DNA of 64,000 bases, from positions 1 through 64,000 of the forward strand of contig UBMP01000001.1 of assembly GCA_900466575.1 (NCBI GenBank). Direction: 5' to 3'. Origin of the DNA: Hyphomicrobiales bacterium (lineage in GTDB: Bacteria > Pseudomonadota > Alphaproteobacteria > Rhizobiales > Rhizobiaceae). Made by a program: the position numbers and the translations under genes. The notes beneath the pieces were generated by a model, which was given only the letters and a program-made list of their open reading frames with translations, searched no databases and was not told the origin of the DNA. This document shows positions 5,464 through 29,787 of the stretch, piece after piece. Position 1 is the stretch's first letter, and each line of letters opens with the position of its first letter.

Positions 5464-5519
5464 ATTTATCCCCACGATAAACGGTTGCAGTTGTGACCGC
5501 GCCTTTTCCGAGGCGGCGG

Positions 5520-5702
5520 CCTTTTCCGTCAGGGCAGGTCTCCTGGCTGGCGGGTCGTCGCCGCGATCCGCCTTCCCGGTTTCCCAGTGGCATATCGAAT
5601 CCGGCTCGCCGCTTACAGTTGCGGGGGCAGCCATGCTTCGGGCCCGTCATTGGTCATCCCTAGCATGTTCCCTTTTCATCCCGCGAGACTTGGCCTCGCG
5701 GG
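5520..5702 (-). promoter_or_regulatory. Cobalamin (AdoCbl) riboswitch
   Basis: Reading the minus strand, the region has the typical elements in order: GATGAAAAGGGAA near 5665-5683, a GCTGCCCCCGCAACTGTAAG core around 5612-5632, and the B12 box AGCCAGGAGACCTGCC at 5533-5548. This is the class that binds adenosylcobalamin and lowers expression of transporters or B12 synthesis genes. It sits about 60 bases upstream of cbtB, so cobalt uptake should fall when B12 is plentiful. Outer boundaries are approximate. The remaining 120 bases up to 5820 are AT-rich and presumably hold the promoter. Confidence 0.95.
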
Positions 5703-5820
5703 AACCATGACGTGCACACTATGGCCACGAGCTGAAACACAAGTCAACGCGGCTATAAAATTCGAATATCGAATAATACTTATATCAAATAAATTGACTG
5801 AATTCATTGGATTTTCACTC

Positions 5821-29155: not shown

Positions 29156-29250
29156 TAAAATCATTCAAGTGAGTTATGCGCATCCAGCATGCCGTTCCGG
29201 CGTGCGGGCGTCGTGCGGCTATCCCGCAATGCTGCAACGCAGCATAAACT

Positions 29251-29294
29251 GGAAAAGAAAAAGGGCGATGCCGGGAGGAGGTGGCATCGCCCTT
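29251..29294 (-). terminator. Terminal hairpin with a CCTCCTCCC loop (RNA 3' end)
   Basis: On the minus strand, a perfect 12-base stem (AAGGGCGATGCC with GGCATCGCCCTT) closes a loop ACCTCCTCCC and is followed by TTTTTCTTTTCC. It is an excellent intrinsic terminator and also the third copy of the CCTCCTCCC loop motif. Confidence 0.9.
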
Positions 29295-29422
29295 GGATCA
29301 GCTAGGCTGATCGTGTCCCGGCATTGGGAGGAGGAGTTGCCGGGAACAAACCGGTTTCGGCTGACCCAGGAGATCTTGGGAGGAGGAGCGATCTCAGGCT
29401 ACCGAAACTGGAACTCAAATTC
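29256..29422 (-). ncRNA. Cuckoo-type small RNA with three CCUCCUCCC hairpin loops
   Basis: Downstream of a 48-codon ORF on the minus strand come three hairpins that each show CCTCCTCCC in the loop: stem GAGATC/GATCTC (29370-29395), stem TCCCGGCA/TGCCGGGA (29316-29345) and the terminal 12-base stem (29261-29294). A small GATCAGC-TAG-GCTGATC hairpin (29296-29312) lies between the last two. This fits the alphaproteobacterial CCUCCUCCC-motif RNAs (CcsR RNAs of Rhodobacter, the cuckoo family), which are cut from the 3' part of an mRNA for a small DUF1127-type protein and respond to stress. The loops could pair with Shine-Dalgarno sequences. Confidence 0.85.
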
Positions 29423-29569
29423 TTAGAAAGGACCCTTTTTCAGGCCTTCACGCATCTTGCCCAGAACGTTCAGGGACGCGTCGTCCATGCCGGCGAGAAC
29501 GCGTGCTACATGACGCTGAGCGGAACGCTCGCGCATGGCCATCACATTCGTCACATCCATCCTGGACAT
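29423..29569 (-). CDS. 48-residue protein upstream of the CCUCCUCCC RNA, DUF1127-like
   Basis: This short ORF is translated MSRMDVTNVMAMRERSAQ and continues basic and helical to KKGPF. It contains L-x-x-M-D-D-x-x-L-x-x-L-G-x-x-R, the spacing of DUF1127 proteins (L..LDD..L.DIG..R), though the match is weak. GAAGGG lies eight bases before ATG 29569; another ATG at 29575 is too close to it. Small DUF1127 proteins in this arrangement bind RNA and the sRNA is released from their mRNA. Its coding nature rests on context and start signals, not on homology I could test. Confidence 0.6.
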   Translation of the reverse strand: MSRMDVTNVMAMRERSAQRHVARVLAGMDDASLNVLGKMREGLKKGPF

Positions 29570-29617
29570 CTTCATTTCCCTTCGACTTCAGACATGTTGG
29601 CGTCTTTCGATGATTTT

Positions 29618-29644: not shown

Positions 29645-29787
29645 CACAGTCGATTGCTCATGGGAGCTATGCATTTTCTGCATAAATTTTACCGAACGGA
29701 TAAAAGCTTGCAGCCAGCGGGGCCCTTGGCGTTCCTCTTCTTGATAGGATAAACCTCGACATCCATTGCAATTCGATCGGGCCCATC

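Follow-up and report, generated by a model that had tools for sequence, protein, structure and literature searches.

A minus-strand unit between prmA and pepP

In the window, the whole 64,000-nucleotide stretch of DNA analysed here, the gap between prmA (PF06325) and an M24 peptidase gene (pepP-like, PF00557) is occupied by a minus-strand unit. Both flanking genes lie on the other strand. Read in its own direction, the unit consists of an LsrB/VtlR-type box, a CTATAA hexamer, a short open reading frame (ORF), hairpins 1 and 2, a spacer stem, and finally hairpin 3 and its U-rich run (Table 1). The stop codon lies 11 bases before hairpin 1, and the hairpins span 29411-29261 of the minus strand. 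Among the best 80 of 531 PrmA matches, the closest (93-94% identity) come from Rhizobiales bacterium AFS022961, Rhizobium sp. C1 and Rhizobium sp. C4, followed at 66-71% by Rhizobium, Ensifer/Sinorhizobium, Agrobacterium, Neorhizobium and others.

Table 1. Features of the prmA-pepP unit, in window coordinates.
Feature	Position	Strand	Basis
LsrB/VtlR-type box TGCA-N6-GCAT (TGCAGAAAATGCAT)	29669..29682	-	match to the published NfeR1 promoter motif
Putative -10 element CTATAA	29619..29624	-	sequence and box-plus-TATA pattern
ORF of 48 codons, DUF1127-like small basic protein (alternative start 29575)	29423..29569	-	dN/dS, family HMM, profile link
Hairpin 1, long interrupted stem, CCUCCUCCC in 14-nt loop	29351..29411	-	fold, genus alignment
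Hairpin 2, CCUCCUCCC in 14-nt loop	29313..29347	-	fold, genus alignment; R1 match 29347-29257 starts here
Spacer stem GAUCAGC/GCUGAUC, motif-free	29296..29312	-	paired bases invariant in 6/6 genus sequences; counterpart covaries in 24 other loci
Hairpin 3 (29294-29261), 12-bp terminator stem, CCUCCUCCC in 10-nt loop, U-rich run	29250..29294	-	fold, genus alignment

Each hairpin carries one exact copy of CCTCCTCCC (29378-29386, 29326-29334 and 29273-29281, minus strand), and in the predicted fold all three copies lie unpaired in their loops. The 167-nt strand folds to -71.2 kcal/mol, against a shuffle mean of -44.45 (z -6.6; none of 200 shuffles as low). When the whole unit including the ORF is folded, the three hairpins stay intact and their loops open (z -4.4). 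Hairpin 3 has the form of an intrinsic terminator in the predicted fold, its 12 pairs being followed by the U-rich run; it was not listed by a simple terminator scan with a loop limit of 8. The motif positions and the fold bear out a preliminary description of this DNA, which had reported three minus-strand hairpins with the motif in each loop, the last a terminator, behind a short ORF. That description had also made its reading depend on conservation of the loops in relatives, and the three motifs are kept in all six distinct sequences of the genus (window, L089-L091, L173 and L174).

When the genus sequences are aligned on the structure of the window, 90.4% of 293 cells pair. Eight pairs have changed on both sides, compared with 3.1 in shuffles that do not preserve relatedness (1 of 500 as high), and further pair types show no excess over these shuffles (179 of 500 as high). 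The spacer stem and hairpin 3 pair in 100% of their cells, and the inner stem of hairpin 1 is the least conserved element (66.7%). In L092, also of this genus, the minimum-energy fold is without hairpin 1 as such.

The ORF comprises 50 codons from the ATG at 29575 and 48 from the ATG at 29569, the second start being shared by the congeners, and is present in all six genomes of the genus that were compared. Third codon positions differ most in 15 of 15 congener pairs. The dN/dS ratio lies between 0.19 and 0.62 in 14 pairs and is 1.12 in the other. Judged by these sequence comparisons, the ORF looks like a real gene under purifying selection that belongs to a wider family. For the 50-residue form, AlphaFold2 predicts helices at residues 3-28, 32-37 and 42-46 (mean pLDDT 74.9, pTM 0.46).

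The LsrB site of NfeR1 is described as TGCA-N6-GCAT between -72 and about -57 (PMC10746234). In the window, 64 nt separate the first base of the box (29682-29669) from the end of CTATAA; we infer a transcription start near 29612, and the box would hence begin near -70. The -10 hexamer is also found in four aligned relatives (as CTATAT in L092). The pattern TGCA-N6-GCAT, 38-62 bases, YTATAW occurs five times in the genome and never in the reversed control. Three of these sites belong to the DUF1127 gene of a second motif cluster (C10, see below), the cuckoo RNA of that cluster and the window ORF, with lengths of 64, 66 and 64 bases, respectively. The other two lie at G000 C18:76944-77019 and C40:46626-46694 and are 76 and 69 bases long. 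Across prmA loci, a loose form of the box is found in 68 of 78 prmA-pepP gaps, against a chance level of 3% by mononucleotide shuffling, and the exact box in 55 of 78 (gap counts cover 78 of the 80 prmA loci, two without a pepP match being left out). A simple sigma-70 scan found no promoter for the unit. In Brucella, activation of AbcR2 and of three DUF1127 genes is reported for VtlR, the counterpart of LsrB (PMC12595884).

A predicted anti-Shine-Dalgarno RNA with its own place

The 9-mer is present in 51 copies in the 5.14 Mb genome, against 74 for the motif read backwards, and genome-wide enrichment of the 9-mer as such is therefore rejected. Clustering alone stands out: 13 of the 51 copies fall into four same-strand clusters of three or four, each within ~130 bases, namely the window (3), C10 (4), C17 (3) and C38 (3). 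The Rfam model ar14 (RF02344) scores 53.1 bits at the window locus (E 7.9e-9, 651 bases searched), below its gathering score of 58.8, and remains below the cut-off in all four of L089-L092 (49.9-55.5 bits). The paralogous clusters C10, C17 and C38 pass it with 108.5, 90.7 and 111.6 bits, and four ar14 matches are found genome-wide at E<=0.001. CcsR1 (RF02791) reaches 24.3 bits at the window locus and does not attain its gathering score of 65.3. The sub-threshold ar14 match and the three passing paralogues support the cuckoo-type assignment that had been made from the sequence alone, with the window RNA predicted to be a cuckoo/ar14-type anti-Shine-Dalgarno RNA and one of four such clusters in the genome.

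With the ar14/NfeR1 RNAs, the cuckoo RNAs of Rhizobiales, the window RNA shares three hairpins with identical CCUCCUCCC loops, the terminator as the last of them, an LsrB box at about -70 and the occurrence of several copies per genome. It differs from them in its score (53.1 against 58.8 bits), in the extra spacer stem and in its position 11 bases 3' of an ORF. The loops also recall AbcR1/AbcR2, which share with the unit LsrB/VtlR activation (proposed here for the window), anti-Shine-Dalgarno-like loops and transport targets (PMC10746234, PMC12595884). In PMC10746234, the AbcR loop motifs are given as similar, not identical, and AbcR1/AbcR2 as sRNAs, not as the tail of a coding mRNA.

At two of the paralogous clusters, DUF1127 genes lie close by. 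In C10 (L009 3172-3643, G000), a true DUF1127 gene is followed by a four-motif cuckoo RNA, and gene and RNA each have their own LsrB-type box and TATA element; in the window, the sole box found lies upstream of the ORF. In C38 (L011 3467-4579, G000), the ar14 RNA lies beside a gene that by eye is trigger-factor-like and a tRNA gene, and two DUF1127 genes follow. This ar14 RNA is probably the nfeR1 orthologue. According to PMC7143759, northern blots reliably detect only one of the six NfeR1 copies of S. meliloti, so the window paralogue could be silent.

The window RNA could be taken for simply a fourth ar14 copy, a reading that we reject. For the RNA outside the genus, 24 loci, none of them from the window's genus, served to build a covariance model (R1) that covers hairpin 2, spacer and terminator. 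The underlying alignment (A3) holds 24 of 32 listed loci. The list was chosen by a hairpin-2 sequence pattern that 19 of 76 scanned loci do not show, and helix 1 of A3 is conserved partly through this selection. In A3, 99.2% of cells pair and 10 pairs have changed on both sides, against 5.4 in shuffles that again do not preserve relatedness (0 of 500 as high); further pair types show no excess (201 of 500 as high). R1 matches the window with 46.4 bits (E 1.1e-8), its congeners with 44.9-46.6, L037 with 57.9 and the S. meliloti locus L099, which lies outside the model, with 76.5 bits. It does not match the cuckoo parts of L009, L010 and L011. The ar14 model, in turn, falls short of E 0.01 in 7 of 11 prmA loci and 6 of 7 R1 loci given to Rfam, where the RNA has no match in Rfam 15 at E<=0.01; the exception among the R1 loci, L250, has an ar14 score of 39.3 bits, still below the cut-off.

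At E<=1e-4, whole-genome searches under stricter Infernal filters give R1 a single match per genome in 29 of 151 genomes (22 of 109 genera). In the window's own genome, that match is the window locus (E 4.1e-7). Nearly all R1 loci (28 of 29) adjoin prmA or pepP, and 11 carry the ORF (A1 profile, E<=0.01). Of the 78 prmA-pepP gaps, 70 have the heptamer CTCCTCC on the ORF strand and one has it on the other strand, the level in shuffles being 6%. Folds outside the genus show hairpin 2, the spacer stem and the terminator, and often hairpin 1; L151 is without hairpin 1 as such, L127 without a separate spacer stem, and the second loop of L111 without an exact CTCCTCC. The terminator loop of these RNAs is mostly UUCG or three bases in place of the motif, with L037 as an exception. 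The window RNA is best explained as orthologous across genera, the form that a separate prmA-pepP RNA would take in this genus. Our literature searches found no published sRNA at prmA-pepP, and Reinkensmeier and Giegerich 2015 may already list the locus. In six loci (L105, L107, L110, L122, L128 and L130), the gap measures only 95-124 bases and contains neither ORF nor RNA motif; the named ones are Agrobacterium or Rhizobium skierniewicense.

The small protein, its DUF1127 kinship and its absence from some loci

At E<=0.1, a search with the single ORF sequence detects relatives in 46 of the 151 genomes from the GTDB family. Among 30 ORF loci, the window's included, 26 have prmA and pepP nearby, three pepP only and one neither. 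With a profile of 17 sequences (A1), matches at E<=0.01 extend to 255 of 394 genomes and 89 of 109 genera, of which the weaker ones may be chance. After iteration, the profile matches 59 of the 80 prmA loci at E<1e-3, always on the expected strand of the gap and nowhere else in the loci. No family model was matched in Pfam (ORF and five relatives) or NCBIfam (ORF and four); among the relatives given to Pfam, two sub-cut-off matches to the unrelated ARMC9 family were seen.

The preliminary description had taken the ORF for a much-diverged DUF1127. The Pfam model (PF06568, cut-off 23.3 bits) does not bear this out, as the ORF and five relatives are unmatched at E<=10, and a DUF1127 search of the whole genome yields six matches, the ORF not being among them. 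A comparison of profiles points to a distant kinship of the family. The hhalign alignment of the ORF family with a DUF1127 profile reaches 93.4% (score 33.8) over 27 columns, whereas 200 column shuffles attain at most 5.2% and a score of 15.3 (0 of 200 reach 93.4%) and the reversed profile 1.0%. The link persists at 91.8% without two bridging rows. It is weak for the genus rows alone (54.8%, and 11.9% without L092). Before the comparison, rows more than 90% identical were dropped from the ORF family (88 to 45) and rows more than 95% identical from DUF1127 (40 to 17), and rows of up to 20 residues were also removed; the 17 DUF1127 rows were drawn from the window's genome and related genomes. 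The ORF resembles DUF1127 in its length, basic character, L..[LM]DD..L..[IL]G..R..[IL] tail and promoter box, and differs from it in the missing Pfam match and in an N-terminal half that does not align. We conclude that the ORF family is likely a distant relative of DUF1127, and do not claim PF06568 membership for the ORF. The reported binding partners of DUF1127 proteins are RNA in one genus and proteins in others (PMC12501420).

The ORF and the RNA do not always occur together. Of 80 prmA loci, 67 contain both a box and a motif, and 13 have no measurable distance between them. Box and first motif lie 291-486 bases apart in the 56 loci with the ORF and 135-190 bases apart in the 11 loci without it. 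This means that box and RNA motifs persist without an ORF-sized segment between them. Nine of the 11 ORF-less loci are from Sinorhizobium/Ensifer, the other two from Rhizobium rhizolycopersici and Ferirhizobium litorale. Conversely, some genera have the syntenic ORF, and CTCCTCC is not found downstream on its strand. Since the ORF is also syntenic in these genera, the simpler reading is that the Sinorhizobium line lost it, a direction of change that we infer.

Other ORFs are seen in some of these gaps. In L099 (3452-3778, minus strand) and also L094, both Sinorhizobium/Ensifer, an ORF with a Cys/His pattern, by eye like a small HNH-type protein, lies between the RNA and prmA. In the Rhizobium rhizolycopersici locus (L161 3804-4682, minus strand), the gap holds an extra long ORF, by eye D-Ala-D-Ala carboxypeptidase-like, upstream of the RNA motifs.

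Proposed mode of action and its alternatives

Taken together, we propose as the probable reading that the unit is an LsrB-activated mRNA for a DUF1127-like protein, the 3' UTR of which yields a ribosome-site-blocking sRNA. This proposal draws on the fold, the conservation of the motifs in the genus, selection on the ORF, and the promoter box with its spacing. It is also supported by synteny, by the orthology of the RNA across genera, by the distant DUF1127 kinship and by the ORF-less loci that retain box and RNA. In this model, LsrB (VtlR) would activate a single minus-strand transcription unit between prmA and pepP from the TGCA-N6-GCAT box. The mRNA would encode the small basic DUF1127-like protein, and its 3' end would fold into three CCUCCUCCC hairpins. 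Cleavage in the short A/U-rich stretch between the stop codon and hairpin 1, likely by RNase E, would release an sRNA of ~160 nt. Each of the three loops of the sRNA would be able to pair with GGGAGGAG-type ribosome sites and so lower the translation of transport and catabolic mRNAs, in the manner of NfeR1. The protein may aid maturation or provide a further output, comparable to the part that CcaF1 plays for CcsR.

A small protein combined with a processed three-loop RNA would be expected by analogy with three published systems. NfeR1 is reported to be activated by LsrB and to silence ntrB through three redundant loops (PMC10746234). SmelA075, with an identical loop motif, gives a strong signal after a heat shift and occurs in shorter forms (PMC2873474, PMC3927594). 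For the CcsR RNAs, cleavage out of the ccaF1 3' UTR is described as involving both RNase E and CcaF1 (PMC10253847, PMC8625941). The ccaF1-CcsR1-4 locus of Rhodobacter sphaeroides is laid out like the window unit: behind a gene for a small basic protein come CCUCCUCCC hairpins and, at the end, a terminator, under one inferred promoter. The two differ in that CcaF1 contains a DUF1127 domain and is expressed from an RpoHI/RpoHII promoter (PMC10253847), whereas the window ORF shows no DUF1127 match and lies behind an LsrB-type box.

Candidate targets were sought as GGGAGGAG-N3-10-ATG, which occurs 33 times in the genome and nine times in the control. Behind these sites (30 of 33 loci), 22 ORFs of at least 100 codons were found, one of them in two overlapping loci. 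Pfam was run on 20 of them and assigned a family at E<=1e-10 to 17. The candidates include two periplasmic binding proteins (Peripla_BP_6 genes, L205 and L214), one ABC ATPase (L207) and several catabolic enzymes. This list would fit the published target class, and any list of strong ribosome sites may look alike, because GGGAGGAG upstream of ATG is of the ordinary Shine-Dalgarno type and the list is thus unspecific.

The hairpins could instead work in cis only, ending transcription, protecting the mRNA or hiding its own ribosome site, with no trans-acting sRNA. The strong predicted terminator in hairpin 3 and the mere 11 bases between stop codon and hairpin 1 favour such a role. However, a terminator does not need three identical 9-nt loops, and the CTCCTCC motifs and the promoter box are retained in the 11 loci that have no ORF match. 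The fold of the whole unit also leaves the loops open, none being occupied by the start region of the ORF, and we consider a role restricted to cis quite unlikely. The same 11 loci, nine of them Sinorhizobium/Ensifer, can be read the other way: as the ORF evolves fast and is not found where box and motifs are kept, the RNA alone might matter, with the ORF a decaying or non-functional leader. This appears unlikely to us, given that dN/dS is below 0.65 in 14 of 15 pairs and that genera without CTCCTCC downstream on the ORF strand nevertheless have the ORF in the prmA-pepP gap. There, selection would appear to maintain the ORF in the absence of the RNA, provided that no diverged loops escaped detection.

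A further possibility concerns what the loops bind. The motif resembles the 16S anti-Shine-Dalgarno sequence and is identical in all loops, which leaves little target choice, and the calculated pairing with GGGAGGAGG amounts to -19.9 to -20.3 kcal/mol, against -14.1 for a 16S-tail sequence. The loops might thus serve as a sponge for a protein or the ribosome instead of being antisense to chosen mRNAs. Yet the paralogue NfeR1 is reported to silence by pairing with mRNA start regions (PMC10746234), and a sponge strikes us as improbable.

With the mRNA-derived, ribosome-site-blocking sRNA as the preferred reading, the preliminary description appears right in kind, as a cuckoo-type unit with a DUF1127-like ORF, and incomplete, so that it is partly supported. 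The present comparison adds to it a putative ORF family that is conserved and mostly syntenic, a predicted separate prmA-pepP RNA, the LsrB-type box and the apparent persistence of the RNA without the ORF. As far as sequence can tell, the window unit belongs to a branch of its own, syntenic and with an LsrB box, whose members have protein and RNA either jointly or singly. An evenly balanced proposition goes further. The prmA-pepP gap of Rhizobiaceae may have its own RNA family, which would record an sRNA gene separating from a protein gene: an LsrB-driven, DUF1127-like mRNA with a cuckoo 3' UTR would have given rise to a stand-alone sRNA in Sinorhizobium-type lineages, with the same kind of promoter in the same place. 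In the window's genus, the motif in the terminator loop would make a three-loop RNA from a mostly two-loop one, and protein and RNA would both take part in LsrB-controlled metabolism.

The locus offers a natural comparison for the question of why DUF1127 proteins accompany anti-Shine-Dalgarno RNAs. In one conserved place, and mostly with one kind of box, some loci combine protein and RNA, some have the protein but no recognised RNA, and others have the RNA but no recognised protein. The coupling of protein and RNA is thus testable by species comparison and small edits. With the Rfam, Pfam and NCBIfam models applied here, both halves of the unit go undetected or are narrowly missed. On the same window, a cobalamin riboswitch lies at 5516-5724 of the minus strand (Rfam RF00174, 116.9 bits).
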